Positions 29,937-37,210 of a stretch of DNA of 37,210 nucleotides are shown here, in pieces. Numbering within the stretch: the stretch's first letter is position 1; each line of letters starts with the position of its first letter. Source of the stretch: Planctomycetota bacterium (GTDB lineage Bacteria > Planctomycetota > Planctomycetia > Pirellulales > UBA1268); assembly GCA_003670915.1 (NCBI GenBank), contig QWQH01000130.1, positions 1 to 37,210 on the forward strand, read 5' to 3'. Under the pieces are notes generated by a model. It did no database searches, had not been told where the DNA came from, and was given only the letters and a program-made list of their open reading frames with translations. The position numbers and the translations under genes were made by a program.

Positions 29937-31505
29937 CTAGACGGCGCACGCAGTCGGCCGCGGGGCGTCAGACTTTTCAACGAGCTTATCTTCATCGACA
30001 CAGTCTGCAGCGATCCATCCCGACATCAGCACCATCGGCATACCCGGCCCTGGATGCGAGGAACCACCCGCCATATAGAGGCCCTCGATATCGGGGGAAC
30101 GGTTCGCAGGCTTAAACGCGCCTAGGAATCTGCCGTGACTGGCTAAGCCATAGATGGCGCCGTCGAGCACGTGGTAGCGGTCGTGGATGTCCTGTGGAGT
30201 CAGCGACTTTTCAAACACGATGTGCCGTTCAAGATTTTTGAGACCGGCTGTTTGTTCTAGTTTTTCAATGATCCTCCGGCGGTAGGCGGGGAACATTTTT
30301 GACCAATCGTGGTGGGGACGCAGGTAGGGTGTGTGCACCAAAACATAGAGTGACTCGCCGCCGGCAGGTGCAACGTCCGGTTCGGTAACCGCCGGGGCAC
30401 AGACGTAACAGGTGGGGTCGGGGGCCGGCTCACCGCGATGGTAGATTGCCTCAAACTCTTCGTGCGGGTCCGCCGAAAAAACAAAGTTGTGGTGGATGAG
30501 TTGCTCGAAGCGGGTGTCGAGGCCGAGATAAAGGACCACGCCCGAGCAGGCTGGTTCGTATGTTCGGCGATTGAGAAAACGCTCCTGCGGCAGCCCCTCA
30601 ACGAGTTCGCGATGGGTGCGAACACTATCGGAATTACTGATGACAGCGGCGGCGTGGATGGTTTCTCCCTGCTCTGTTTCTACGCCGCGTACCGCCCCGT
30701 TTTCTACGATGATCCGTCGCACTCCTGTGCCTGTGCGGATGTCCACGCCAAGGTCTCCAGCGAGGTTCGCGAGGGCCCGCGGCACTGCGCCGGTGCCGCC
30801 ACGCGGATACCACACGCCATCGTGTGCCTGCATGTGGGCGATGCCGCAGAGCACAGCTGGCGAAGCATCTGGGGCGCTGCCGACATATTGCGTGAAATGA
30901 TCGAGCATCTGCGCGGCGCGAGCATCCTTCACAAAAGATCGCACGGTGCCCGCAACACTGTGGCCAGGCCGCATGCCGATCACTTCCTTGATCAGCGAGA
31001 GCGAGAGGCCGCGGCGAGGGTTGAACATGTCCTTCATGCCACCCACAGAACGCCAAAAGAAAAAGTCGTTCGAGAGTTTGTGCAAACGCTCTGCAAGCGA
31101 CATAAATCTGGCGTAGCCATCGCCAGAACCTGTGCCGGGAGCGTATGTGTCGAGCGCGGCGCGCATCTGTTCGACGTCAGAAATCAGGTCGAGAGTCGAA
31201 CCATCGCAAAAGAAACTCCGCCACTGAGGATCGAGCGGCACGAGGTCCAGAACGCTTTCGAGTTCTCGACCGGCCTCTGCAAAAATCCGCTTGAGCACTC
31301 TTGGGATGGTGAGAATCGTCGGTCCCATGTCAAATCGAAAACCCTGCTCTTCCAAGACGGCTGCCTTCCCGCCGACCCACGCATTTTTCTCGCAGAGCGT
31401 TACGGCATATCCACGGGCCGCAAGCGTGCAGGCCGAAGCCAAGCCACCGAGGCCGCCGCCGATGACGGCCACACGGTTGCGTTCACGGGGGGGTATCCGG
31501 GGCAT
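29937..31505 (-). CDS. CrtI/CrtN/CrtP-family carotenoid desaturase/oxidase
   Basis: VAVIGGGLGGLASACTLAARGYAVTLCEKNAWVGGKAA (FAD), GFRFDMGPTILTIP, C-terminal DIEGLYMAGGSSHPGPGMPMVLMSGWIAADC. Confidence 0.9.
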   Translation of the reverse strand: MPRIPPRERNRVAVIGGGLGGLASACTLAARGYAVTLCEKNAWVGGKAAVLEEQGFRFDMGPTILTIPRVLKRIFAEAGRELESVLDLVPLDPQWRSFFCDGSTLDLISDVEQMRAALDTYAPGTGSGDGYARFMSLAERLHKLSNDFFFWRSVGGMKDMFNPRRGLSLSLIKEVIGMRPGHSVAGTVRSFVKDARAAQMLDHFTQYVGSAPDASPAVLCGIAHMQAHDGVWYPRGGTGAVPRALANLAGDLGVDIRTGTGVRRIIVENGAVRGVETEQGETIHAAAVISNSDSVRTHRELVEGLPQERFLNRRTYEPACSGVVLYLGLDTRFEQLIHHNFVFSADPHEEFEAIYHRGEPAPDPTCYVCAPAVTEPDVAPAGGESLYVLVHTPYLRPHHDWSKMFPAYRRRIIEKLEQTAGLKNLERHIVFEKSLTPQDIHDRYHVLDGAIYGLASHGRFLGAFKPANRSPDIEGLYMAGGSSHPGPGMPMVLMSGWIAADCVDEDKLVEKSDAPRPTACAV

Positions 31506-31522: not shown

Positions 31523-33175
31523 TCAGGTGAGTGTTGGAGTGGTGCTCGGGTGCCCGAGCGATAAGCCATGCGAGCCATGAGCGTCATGCGAGTCATGCGA
31601 GTCATGTCTGACCGCAGACGAGACGGATGCCGCAGACTCCTCGGCATAGATCGCAGCCGATTTTTTTCGGCTGGGAGCGTTGCTGGTGGCGACCACACCC
31701 AGATCCTGAAGCAGGAGTTGTGACGTAATTCGGGCCGACGAGTAGATCACAGGCAAACCGCTGCCGGGGTGGGTGCCGCCCCCAACCAAGTACATGCCTT
31801 CCAAATCTTCGAAGCGGTTGTGTGGCCGCATGTGCAGCATCTGCCCAAGATCGTGAGAGAGATTAAAGGTTGCGCCTCGGTAGATCTCGTAGTCGTCCTG
31901 CCAATGATCCGGAGTGATCATCCGTTCGTAGCGGATTCGCTTGCGCACGTCGGACACACCAATTTTATCGAGTTGATCCAGTGCGATTTCACGGAATCGC
32001 GGGGCTTCGCGGCGCCAGTCGACATTTGGATGGCGGTGCGTGACGGGTACAAGCAGATAGAGTGTACTGGCTCCTGCCGGTGCGAGCATTGGGTCGGTCA
32101 CGCAGGCATTTTGAACGTAGAAGGAAGGGTCGCGGCCGAGCACATGCCGGGTTTCAATGTCGGCCAGATTCTCGCGGTAGTTTTCAGAAAGATAGATGGA
32201 GTGGTGGGGAATGGAATCGTACCGGCCATCGATGCCGAGATAGAGCATGAATGTCGAGCAGGAAAATCGTTTCGCAGCGATCTTTCGATCGCTCCATCGC
32301 CGCCGCAACCGATCTGGCACCAGTCGCGTCATGCTGCGGGCGAAGTCAGCGTTGATGACCGTAGCATCGGATTCGTATTCGTCTTGCGACGTGCGTACCG
32401 CTCGGATGCGTCGGCCTTCAAATCGCATCGACTCAACGTGCTCCTGATAGTGGATCTCCACACCCATCTCTTGGGCGATTCTGGCCATGGCAGTCGAGAC
32501 CGCGCCACAGCCTCCAATTGGGTGGTATACGCCATGCTCGTATTCCAAGAACGACAAGATTGAAAACAGGCTCGGGCAGCGAAAGGGCGACATGCCCAAA
32601 TATTTCGACTGAAATGTAAAGGCGAGGCGGATCCGTTCGTCGGAGAAGAATGTGCCGAGTTCCGAGTCGAGACTTTTCCAAGGCTTGAGCAGTGGCAATA
32701 GTTTGAGGAGATCGGGGTTTGCCAAATCCCGCCAACTCTCAAAGGGCTTTTCAAGAAACGGGGCAAATCTGGCAAACTTCTCGCGAGTGGCCTCCATAAA
32801 CCGAGTGAAGGATCCACGGTCGGCTGGGGAGAGCCGGGAGACCTCGGCCTCCATGCGATCGATATCGGGGGTTGCCAACAGTTCGCCGCCGGCGCCGAAT
32901 ACCAGTCGGTACTGCGGGTCCAGTCGCACCATCTCCACTTCGTGCCGTAGGTCGTAGCCGCAGGTCGAAAAAATTTCTTCCAGCACTCGCGGGTAGAGAA
33001 AAAATGTGGGGCCCAGATCGAACCGAAAACCTTCGGGCGTGGAAATTGTGCTGGTGCGTCCTCCTGGCACGCCGAGCCGTTCGATCACGCGGACTCGGAT
33101 CCCGGCATTCGCCAGAAGCATGGCACAGGCCAGCCCGCCTGGGCCAGCACCGATGATAGTGACCGTATGAGTCAT
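31523..33175 (-). CDS. CrtI/CrtN-family carotenoid desaturase with Asp/His/Ser-rich C-terminal tail
   Basis: VTIIGAGPGGLACAMLLANAGIRVRVIERLGVPGGRTSTI, GFRFDLGPTFFLYPRVLEEIF, C-terminal DLEGMYLVGGGTHPGSGLPVIYSSARITSQLLL. Confidence 0.9.
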   Translation of the reverse strand: MTHTVTIIGAGPGGLACAMLLANAGIRVRVIERLGVPGGRTSTISTPEGFRFDLGPTFFLYPRVLEEIFSTCGYDLRHEVEMVRLDPQYRLVFGAGGELLATPDIDRMEAEVSRLSPADRGSFTRFMEATREKFARFAPFLEKPFESWRDLANPDLLKLLPLLKPWKSLDSELGTFFSDERIRLAFTFQSKYLGMSPFRCPSLFSILSFLEYEHGVYHPIGGCGAVSTAMARIAQEMGVEIHYQEHVESMRFEGRRIRAVRTSQDEYESDATVINADFARSMTRLVPDRLRRRWSDRKIAAKRFSCSTFMLYLGIDGRYDSIPHHSIYLSENYRENLADIETRHVLGRDPSFYVQNACVTDPMLAPAGASTLYLLVPVTHRHPNVDWRREAPRFREIALDQLDKIGVSDVRKRIRYERMITPDHWQDDYEIYRGATFNLSHDLGQMLHMRPHNRFEDLEGMYLVGGGTHPGSGLPVIYSSARITSQLLLQDLGVVATSNAPSRKKSAAIYAEESAASVSSAVRHDSHDSHDAHGSHGLSLGHPSTTPTLT

Positions 33176-33349
33176 CCGAACACTTCTGCCGACGGTGAAA
33201 AACAAAATGAGCTACCGACAAAACCGATACGATCCCATATTGAGACTGCGTAGTATAGAGGCCAGCGCCGGACGGACAAGAAACAAAGTCAGGCGTGCCA
33301 ACACAAGCGTAGAGCTTGGTTTCAAATGGAGTTCAGTTTCGATTACCGT

Positions 33350-33940
33350 TCAATACCCGGGGTAGTAGTACGCCGAACGCACGGGACGGTAGGCCCCGAA
33401 CAGGCCTCGTCGGTAGATCTGCGTTGGGGCGTAATAGGCTGTCACCGGGGCGGAAGAATAAACCGGCGTTGCATAGCTGGGCGCATAATAAGCAGGAGCC
33501 GGTGCGTAGTAGGCTGTAGTCGGAGCATAGTAGGCAGTGACCGGCGCATAGTAGGCCGTCATCGCAGTGGGCTGCGGAGGTGCGTAATAGGTTGTCACAG
33601 CGTTCGAACTCGATGGCACCATCGCTGCAATCGGCATGGGGGCGACTGGCATCGGCATGGCTTCCATCATGGGCGGCGAGAACGCCGTCACGGCTGCGTA
33701 ATTCCCAGCGGGCGTGTAGTTGGCGACGTACGGGCCAGCGGCTGGAGCAAACATTGGCACCACTGGCCGGTAGACAACCGTTTGGGCATCTGCCACAGAC
33801 ATGCACCCGAATGCAGAAGCGATCCAAGCAACAACAGTGATGCACGAGGTGGCGCAAGAGAGGTTCGCGCCAGCGAGCTGCGCCTTTTGGAAACGGTTCA
33901 ACTCATAGCCACAGAAGTGAAATGAGTGCGAAGTGTTCAT
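33350..33940 (-). CDS. Exported low-complexity protein with tandem (T/A)(A)YYAP repeats
   Basis: N-terminal hydrophobic leader CATSCITVVAWIASAFGCMSVADA; six YYAP units; start at MNTSHSFHFCG (ORF opens at 34183). Confidence 0.65.
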   Translation of the reverse strand: MNTSHSFHFCGYELNRFQKAQLAGANLSCATSCITVVAWIASAFGCMSVADAQTVVYRPVVPMFAPAAGPYVANYTPAGNYAAVTAFSPPMMEAMPMPVAPMPIAAMVPSSSNAVTTYYAPPQPTAMTAYYAPVTAYYAPTTAYYAPAPAYYAPSYATPVYSSAPVTAYYAPTQIYRRGLFGAYRPVRSAYYYPGY

Positions 33941-34133
33941 GGGATTCCCGTGTGTTGAGGACTGTGTTGAGAACGGCCTTGCATCGAGCAGACCGATCCA
34001 TGGAGAATACGTCCAACCGGCCCGTCCTGCAAACCGCCCGCAAAGTTCAACATTGCAGCGGTGAAGATGGGTAAAGCGTATCGGGCTGGGAGCCCTTTTC
34101 TCGGGTTGATTGCGTATTTTTTGAAGCAGACAG

Positions 34134-37100
34134 TTGGAAACCATGTCCATGCAGCAGACCCCCTCAGGCCACAAACAAGACACTCAAAACACTGAACAAC
34201 AAGAGCAGAGACGCGATGCAAGGGCGGGCTCGGGATTCAATGCCCTTGTGGCACTCCGGGTGCTCACGGTTGTCAACGACAACGTTTTGCGATGGCTGGC
34301 GATCGGTCTCGGAAAGCAGGCAGTAACTGGCGGGCAGGTGGCGGTGGTGCTGACGGTTGGCACCGCAGGGTTTGTCCTGCCGTTTGTACTCCTGGCATGG
34401 CTGGCTGGCTATTTAGCCGACCGCTACCCTAAGCGATCGGTGATCATGTGGTGCAAATTCGCAGAGATCCTGATTGCGGCTGCGGCTGCCGCTGCCGTGG
34501 CATGGGGCGTGCGGTCGGGCGACTCGTTCATTGGCCTCCCCGCTGGACTCTGGCTGCTCTTGGGCACTGTGGTGGTGATCGGTTGTCAGGCTGCGCTGTT
34601 GGCACCGAGCGTCATTGGCACGATCCCGGAAATAGTGCCAGCCAACAAACTGTCGCACGCCAACGGAATTTTTGCGATGGCAACGCTTGCCGCGACGCTG
34701 GTGGGCATGGCCGGCGGCAACTGGCTAGCCGATTCCACGCCCGTGCCAGGCAGCGATAGCGTGGTGCGCTCGGCTGCCATGGTGGCTCACGCCGTGCCTG
34801 CCGCCGTTGCATTGATCGGGCTGGCTGTCGCTGGTTGGATCGCCGCATGGATGCTCGTGCCGCGAGTGGCTGCCGCCCCGACCATGCGGCCTCCATGGAA
34901 TGCCATGGCTCGCACGGGAGCGGATCTGGCGGATCTTTTTCGCAGAAGGGAATTATCGGCAACCGCCGCTGGAATCGTTTTTTTCTGGGCTTTGGGCGCA
35001 GTGGCACAGCTCAACGTGGATCAGTTTGCGAGCGAAGGAGGCGCCACCTCGCAGAGCCAGATTGTGCCGCTCTTGCTTTCCTTGGTCCTCGGCATCGGCC
35101 TTGGCAGTGTCTGCGCCGGTAGGCTTTCGCCGCGAGGAGTGAACCGAGGGTTGGTGCCGATTGGTGCGATCGTGATGGCAGTGGCGTCAGTGTGCCTGGC
35201 GTACTCGCCGCAGCCGATCTTTTTACCGGACGGGTCCTATGGATTGGCTTGGTGGTTCGCGGCAGTTGCGTTGAGTCTCTTGGGCTTTGGCGCGGGCGTG
35301 TTTGATGTGCCGCTGGAGGCCTATTTTCAGGAGCAGAGCCCCGCGGCCCGACGCGGTTCGCTGCTGGCAGTCACAAACCTACTCACGTTTGCAGGCATCT
35401 TCGTCGCATCGCTGCTCTATGGCCTGCTCCGCAGCCCACTTGCCGCGGCAGTTCCTGGCGTGGAGGCCGCACCGCTCCTTTCAGCCCGCAGCATTTTTGG
35501 AATTTTTGGTGGGATGGCTTTTGCAGCCGCGGCCGTTGCCGTGTACGCGGCCCCCCGTGCATCGCTGCGTATGCTCGTGGCATCGCTGGTCGGCTTGCTC
35601 TACCGTTTTCGCGTGAAGCACGCTGATCTTATGCCCGCCACAGGGCCCGTTGTGGTGGTAGCCAATCATCTCTCTTGGTTGGACGGCTTCATTGTTGTGC
35701 TGGCTGGCCTGAGGCCGATTCGGCTGGTCGTCTACGCGCCGAACATTCAGGGCAAATTCATGCGGATGTTGGCTGACCAATGGAGGTTTATTCTCTTTGA
35801 TCCCCGTCCAAAATCGATCGGCACAGCGATGAAGACGATTCAGTCGGGGCTGGCCAACGGCGATGCTGTGGGGATTTTTTCCGAGGGAGGCATTTCTCGC
35901 ACCGGCCAGATTCTGGGTTTCAAACGCGGGCTGGAGTGGATTCTCCAGCGAGTCGAGTCGCCCATTGTACCGTTGCACATCGACGGCATGTGGGGGAGCC
36001 TGCTCTCGTTTTCGGAGGGGCGTTACTTTACAAAATGGCCTCGGGGATTACGTCGGCCGCTGACCCTCACGTTTGGTTCTCCTTTGCCCATAGGCACATC
36101 CGGTCACGCAGCCCGGCTGGCCATACAAGAACTCACGGCGGTGGCCGTACGCGAGCGTTTGCGTCAATCGCGTTCTGCTGACCGAGAACTCATGGCGTGG
36201 CTGCGTCGGTTTCGTAACGATGTCGTCGCGATCTGTGCCGATGGATCACGCCACACCGGAGCCGATGTGCTCAAGGGACTGGAGCGGGCCAACGCGAAGG
36301 CTCTTTTTCAAAACGGCAGCCACGCAGCGGCTCCCGGCGGTCTGTTGGCGGCCTGTTCGGCCCTGCTCGCGGGAGAGCCTTTGGACCTTGCAACCGGGCT
36401 GCGAGCGAGCACGCCAGAACTCTCGCGGCGGCACCGCACTCGGCAGCTGATTGCCATCGATAGCGCACGCTCTCAAGGCCTTGACTGGGCCGCACTGGCG
36501 GCTGGTGCGGAGGCTTTTGATGGGGCCTGTTTGGTGCGGCGGGACGACCGGTTGCTTACGTCGCTTGAGCCGGGCGACCCGCTCTTCGTCCAGTTGGGGC
36601 TCTACGGAGGGGCCTTGCTTGGGATCCGCGCCGTTGTGGCCGACCGCGCACGTTCCACGCAGTTGCTTGCCGAAGTGATCGCCAACGAGGGCATTACCAT
36701 CTGGGTGGCACGAGCCGAGCAGGTGCGGGCCATGGCGTTCGAGCGGGTGCGGCCAGCGCAGACACTCCAAGCCGTGGTGATGCCGTTGGATGATTGTGCG
36801 CAGCTCAGTGGCACACAACAGGTAGCAAACGAGTTTCGCGAGGCCTTTGGCATTGAGCCCGTCGTGGCTTTTGCACCACGTGGCACAGGCGGGCTTGTGG
36901 CGATGAACACCCCACCTGCCCGTGCCGTTGCCGATCACGAGATCGTATTCAAACGCGACACAGTCGGGCGGGTGATCAATGGAGTCGTTGTCTGGCCTCA
37001 GGCATCAATGCGGGAGAAGCTCGGCCGGCCATCGCTTGCTTCGCGTGGGATTTTGGCGGAGGAGTCGGGCACGCTCGCGATCGGTGCAACCCTTGCCTTG

Positions 37101-37202
37101 CCCTTCGAGCAGTCGCAGGATGATTCTCCGGCCGCATGCCTTCTTGACACCGCTTTTGATGTCGATAAGGATGGTTTTCTCGTGCCAGCTTTGGAGCGTT
37201 GA
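34134..37202 (+). CDS. MFS (LplT-like) + PlsC-type acyltransferase + degenerate AMP-ligase-like fusion protein (Aas-like architecture)
   Basis: N-terminal MFS with VALRVLTVVNDNVLRW; PlsC motifs VVANHLSWLDGF and IFSEGGISRTG; C-terminal region with ANL-like segments (DRLLTSLEPGDPLFVQLGLYGGALLGIRAVV, TVGRVINGVVV, DVDKDGFL) but no canonical motifs. Confidence 0.87.
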   Translation: METMSMQQTPSGHKQDTQNTEQQEQRRDARAGSGFNALVALRVLTVVNDNVLRWLAIGLGKQAVTGGQVAVVLTVGTAGFVLPFVLLAWLAGYLADRYPKRSVIMWCKFAEILIAAAAAAAVAWGVRSGDSFIGLPAGLWLLLGTVVVIGCQAALLAPSVIGTIPEIVPANKLSHANGIFAMATLAATLVGMAGGNWLADSTPVPGSDSVVRSAAMVAHAVPAAVALIGLAVAGWIAAWMLVPRVAAAPTMRPPWNAMARTGADLADLFRRRELSATAAGIVFFWALGAVAQLNVDQFASEGGATSQSQIVPLLLSLVLGIGLGSVCAGRLSPRGVNRGLVPIGAIVMAVASVCLAYSPQPIFLPDGSYGLAWWFAAVALSLLGFGAGVFDVPLEAYFQEQSPAARRGSLLAVTNLLTFAGIFVASLLYGLLRSPLAAAVPGVEAAPLLSARSIFGIFGGMAFAAAAVAVYAAPRASLRMLVASLVGLLYRFRVKHADLMPATGPVVVVANHLSWLDGFIVVLAGLRPIRLVVYAPNIQGKFMRMLADQWRFILFDPRPKSIGTAMKTIQSGLANGDAVGIFSEGGISRTGQILGFKRGLEWILQRVESPIVPLHIDGMWGSLLSFSEGRYFTKWPRGLRRPLTLTFGSPLPIGTSGHAARLAIQELTAVAVRERLRQSRSADRELMAWLRRFRNDVVAICADGSRHTGADVLKGLERANAKALFQNGSHAAAPGGLLAACSALLAGEPLDLATGLRASTPELSRRHRTRQLIAIDSARSQGLDWAALAAGAEAFDGACLVRRDDRLLTSLEPGDPLFVQLGLYGGALLGIRAVVADRARSTQLLAEVIANEGITIWVARAEQVRAMAFERVRPAQTLQAVVMPLDDCAQLSGTQQVANEFREAFGIEPVVAFAPRGTGGLVAMNTPPARAVADHEIVFKRDTVGRVINGVVVWPQASMREKLGRPSLASRGILAEESGTLAIGATLALPFEQSQDDSPAACLLDTAFDVDKDGFLVPALER

Positions 37203-37210
37203 GAAGCCCG

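Follow-up and report, generated by a model that had tools for sequence, protein, structure and literature searches.

The window analysed, a stretch of 37210 bp, is the entire contig C150, and its last gene (34134..37202, + strand; probable start ATG at 34143, stop TGA at 37200-37202) encodes an LplT-PlsC-pseudoANL fusion protein of 1022 aa. The N-terminal part is an LplT-type MFS lysophospholipid transporter domain (34230..35429, +; aa 33-432), which matches MFS_1 at 3.6e-16 and the NCBIfam LplT model PRK11195 at 3.8e-25, the latter under the curated cut-off of that model. It is followed by a PlsC acyltransferase domain (35571..36008, +; aa about 480-625; PF01553, 3.2e-17) with conserved NHLSWLD and EGGISRTG sequences; the alignment shows no change at the N, H and D of the intact NHX4D motif in any of the 31 family members or the 12 outgroups. 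Transport of lysophospholipid and its re-acylation by these two domains are predicted from family membership. The rest of the protein consists of a vestigial linker holding the remains of the first third of an ANL domain (36171..36482, +; aa 680-783), assigned from alignment and dN/dS, and a conserved pseudo-ANL core (36483..37187, +; aa 784-1018) extending from just past the P-loop to the hinge, assigned from hhalign, AlphaFold and Foldseek, dN/dS and invariant residues. The chain ends at the ANL hinge with DVDKDGFLVPALER and the stop codon (37161..37202, +), and the C-terminal subdomain with the catalytic Lys is absent. Upstream of the fusion gene, a divergent gene (33350-34183, -) encodes a Tyr-rich repeat protein with many YYAP units and the ending RRGLFGAYRPVRSAYYYPGY, an ending that recurs next to the fusion gene in many genomes of the family. 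Two adjacent genes at 29937-31505 and 31523-33205 (-) were judged by eye to be putative phytoene desaturase-like (CrtI-type) genes.

A Pfam scan of the fusion protein matched MFS_1 and Acyltransferase and did not reach the AMP-binding cut-off, and single-sequence searches of PDB and Pfam, together with a profile search of PDB sequences, did not match the remnant to ANL. When the protein is aligned with 12 full-length fusions taken from families elsewhere in the order, aa 784-1018 are co-linear with the ANL domain from just past the P-loop to the hinge, and on this alignment the residue-by-residue motif mapping of the preliminary description was correct. Comparison of a profile of 30 family remnants with one of 12 intact ANL domains (hhalign) gave 98.5% probability and an E value of 1.6e-15 over 234 columns, P-loop to hinge. 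The AlphaFold model of residues 676-1022 has a pLDDT of 86 and a pTM of 0.87, and the best 50 PDB matches that Foldseek listed for the remnant model were all ANL enzymes or ANL-containing proteins. The C-terminal region thus belongs to the ANL superfamily by descent and by the fold of its N-terminal domain, as had been claimed for the region after PlsC, and the profile comparison, the AlphaFold model and the Foldseek matches led us to reject the view that it is not ANL.

What the remnant lacks is the catalytic apparatus. At the P-loop site TIVFTSGSTGDPKG is aligned with LIAIDSARSQG in the linker of the fusion protein, the YGTTELAP of outgroup fusions with FAPRGTGG, and their xIDADGFIxITGR with the terminal DVDKDGFLVPALER and stop. 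The P-loop, TSG(S/T)TGxPKG, is absent from 31/31 family members and present in 12/12 outgroups, one of which has it as TSGTTNMPKG, the sole departure from the motif set among the outgroup fusions. The TGD motif, the hinge Arg and the GxGK Lys are also missing in all 31 aligned family proteins; YGxTE has become (F/Y)-A-P-x-x, its Thr being absent in all 31 and its Glu kept in 12. All 31 orthologues are truncated alike, 3-43 residues past DxDGFL (VDxDGFL). As a refinement of the earlier mapping, DGSRHTGADVLKGL and the remainder of the linker are vestiges kept in some genera only, the linker being deleted in most relatives. Compared with an active trifunctional LplT-PlsC-ANL (Aas-type) fusion, the protein possesses the LplT-type MFS domain and a PlsC domain with NHX4D, and it lacks YGxTE, TGD and the C-terminal subdomain with GxGK. 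Its match to NCBIfam PRK08633.1 scores 488.5 bits where the cut-off is 1221, and the best stretch covers profile positions 9-637 of 1147. Judged by these motifs, the remnant is predicted to be without adenylation activity.

An artefact would have to be considered if a frameshift, an assembly break or a missing 3' part concealed an intact C-terminal subdomain, and the contig does end only 8 bp past the stop codon. However, contig C65 overlaps the last 302 bp of the window at 299/302 identity, carries the identical stop codon, and continues with a tRNA-Arg 112 bp past the stop and then ruvC. This leaves no space in which a C-terminal subdomain could lie, and no lost exon or frameshift. The end is shared by 31/31 orthologues, and the ruvC neighbour is shared too. 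We therefore reject frameshift and assembly error on the overlap with C65 and regard concealment of an intact subdomain as having a vanishingly small probability. The preliminary description had advised looking 3' of position 37210 for a frameshifted subdomain, and none is there; it had named a region unlike ANL, an intact orthologue interrupted at this point or a frameshift as grounds for abandoning its reading, all of which were tested and none of which was found. Its central claim, an MFS-PlsC fusion carrying an apparently catalytically dead, hinge-truncated ANL domain, is upheld by the motif loss, the 3' end and the fold.

The shortened, apparently dead ANL domain characterises an entire family and is not peculiar to a single gene. 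With a threshold of E<=1e-12, the remnant was detected in 61 of the family's 72 genomes, spanning 12 genera, and in none of the 325 genomes from the rest of the order. Of 398 genomes sampled across the class, only family genomes gave a match, and a tblastn search of plasmid records gave none. Those relatives that carry a name are Planctomycetota MAGs. Most, not all, of the family genomes lacking a remnant match were followed up. The gene is cut by a contig end in G014, G092, G081 and G062, the break falling inside the remnant in the first two; G031 and G034 have gene fragments at contig ends only, G089 has only the first part of the gene, and in G078 the gene was followed as far as residue 594, where the match stops. 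The gene was not found in family genomes G020, G067, G070, G082 and G094. Wherever the family gene is readable past PlsC the remnant is present, and no listed remnant from the 61 genomes has an internal stop. Gene order is also kept in the family, with ruvC downstream and the divergent Tyr-rich repeat gene upstream.

Some proteins encountered during the search lack the remnant. MFS proteins of 728-780 aa in G050, G052 and G042 were considered as sister forms and rejected as a distant paralogue. In G050 and G052 this paralogue has 774-780 aa (L133:3027-5366, -, and L134:3477-5798, -) and comprises an MFS domain and then a PlsC-like region in which NHX4D is apparently altered (NCHETD, NSHDFD). 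A separate locus in G042 (contig C236; L136:3704-5203, -) encodes an LplT-PlsC, probably an orthologue, in which PlsC is the last domain and no ANL remnant follows; G042 also has a stand-alone ligase elsewhere and so offers a clean split for comparison.

The preliminary description had called for an ortholog alignment and domain-wise dN/dS, and had listed decay in progress among its explanations. The alignment shows the motif loss to be conserved in 31/31. For six close pairs, dN/dS of the core, calculated by the Nei-Gojobori method with the L029/L032 pair left out as its synonymous sites were near saturation, was 0.147, 0.155, 0.162, 0.301, 0.346 and 0.357, every bootstrap upper limit being <=0.59; in the same pairs it was 0.47-0.91 for the linker versus 0.03-0.13 for MFS/PlsC. 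Eight core residues (E793, P816, W857, Q863, M924, W954, R960 and A985) are invariant in 31/31 and are not shared by intact ANLs. The core of about 235 residues is therefore under purifying selection with constraints of its own, and the linker is drifting. The constraint on the core is modest, its dN/dS being several times that of PlsC and MFS. With its catalytic motifs lost, its frame conserved and its dN/dS below 1, the core has the features of a pseudoenzyme domain, and its purifying selection and own invariants, beside the drift of the linker, point to retention of a pseudoenzyme domain and not to simple decay.

It could be argued that the redundant ANL domain is a non-functional, eroding tail, tolerated since a folded core is harmless to PlsC. 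The higher dN/dS of the core relative to PlsC and MFS would agree with this, as would the linker, where dN/dS is nearer neutral and which, with the first third of the ANL domain, has been lost to varying extents among genera. However, the bootstrap limits for the core lie well under 1, the frames are open across 12 genera, the hinge end is common to all 31 aligned proteins, the eight invariant residues are new, and no family member was seen with a clean removal of the remnant. Decay is thus disfavoured for the 235-aa core, and we consider it an unlikely explanation of the remnant as a whole. It is also conceivable that the remnant itself still binds a ligand or catalyses a reaction, for example by binding of acyl-adenylate, fatty acid or ACP without adenylation. 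The confidently predicted ANL core fold, the new invariants E793, W857, Q863, W954 and R960, and the YGxTE Glu of a minority of members are compatible with such a role, but the loss from all 31 proteins of the P-loop, the YGxTE Thr, TGD, the hinge Arg and the Lys subdomain makes it quite improbable.

A candidate source of an acyl donor made outside the fusion is encoded beside leuS. The stand-alone ligases of family genomes are mostly 544-605 aa, and among NCBIfam models they match PRK08633 best, in its ANL half (positions 611-1145). They were found in 34 of 36 family genomes (E<=1e-100), all ligase motifs are intact in the 12 of 12 copies examined, and they form one clade with 100/100 support. 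Every family locus with sufficient flanking sequence has the gene divergently beside leuS, and so does G050 of another family. In the window genome it adjoins leuS on contig C110, which ends after 193 residues of the ligase, upstream of the motif region. The proposal that the donor is preformed, made elsewhere, gains support from this intact Aas-type ligase. The stand-alone ligase and the fusion gene are not neighbours, and further ANL ligases occur in most genomes of the family. Outgroup families without the fusion also possess the stand-alone ligase; therefore its presence alone fails to explain the remnant. A functional link of the fusion to a ligase acting in trans is suggested by co-occurrence and shared ancestry.

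In the rest of the order, some genomes have this ligase as part of the fusion, others as a separate protein, and G048 in both forms, so it is plausible that redundancy preceded the loss of the fused ligase activity. A recent origin of the family's stand-alone ligase by copying of the family's own fused domain is unsupported: the family copies are one clade that groups weakly (77/96) with ligases of other families, among them that of G050, also beside leuS, and their exact origin is accordingly only weakly resolved.

Our favoured model, which we regard as likely, is as follows. The gene would derive from an LplT-PlsC-ANL (Aas-type) fusion that was still complete. Its ANL domain would have been stripped, in the common ancestor of one Planctomycetota family, of the motifs that bind ATP and adenylate, of most of the first third and of the entire C-terminal subdomain, and a pseudoenzyme domain of about 235 residues would have been kept afterwards. 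LplT would flip lysophospholipid inward and PlsC would re-acylate it; the acyl-ACP (or acyl-CoA) for this step would be supplied in trans, with the intact stand-alone Aas-type ligase next to leuS as its most likely maker. The most likely role of the remnant would be either to stabilise PlsC or to offer the acyl donor or the trans ligase a surface for docking or regulation; a scaffold, docking or regulatory role is plausible. A more specific version, which we consider less likely than not, is that the pseudo-ANL core was recruited as a docking and control module that brings the trans Aas-type ligase or acyl-ACP to PlsC on the LplT flippase. Were that true, one enzyme would have been split over two genes, with a former catalytic domain left as the connector.

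A search of the open-licence literature found no description of a lysophospholipid-repair fusion that carries a pseudo-ANL domain throughout a family, which is weak evidence of absence. This domain has lost its catalytic motifs and is still under selection, as for pseudoenzymes in general (reviewed in PMC10211241). The closest known system is the LplT-PlsC-ANL tandem fusion (PRK08633.1 / PRK06814.1, acyl-[ACP]-phospholipid O-acyltransferase), which has the same domain order, intact PlsC motifs and co-linear homology over MFS, PlsC and ANL from P-loop to hinge; in contrast, the family protein is without the ANL motifs and C-terminal subdomain and falls far below the score required of that fusion. 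The automatic name acyl-[ACP]-phospholipid O-acyltransferase would falsely imply ligase activity. The leuS-adjacent stand-alone Aas-type ligases are homologues of the fusion's ANL half, but are separate genes with intact motifs. In E. coli, LplT flips lysophospholipid, and Aas makes acyl-ACP and re-acylates, with LplT contacting the transferase domain of Aas only (PMC11416262). The division of labour between a flipping LplT and a re-acylating transferase domain is alike, although these are two proteins in E. coli, and the acyl-ACP synthetase that Aas holds in one chain with PlsC is apparently encoded elsewhere in the family. The family represents a natural experiment in which a fused ligase became a retained non-catalytic domain, with intact fused and stand-alone relatives available for comparison. 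Two questions about Aas can be told apart in this way: is the ANL half required by PlsC for its enzyme activity or for its mere physical presence, and must acyl donors be made on the spot?
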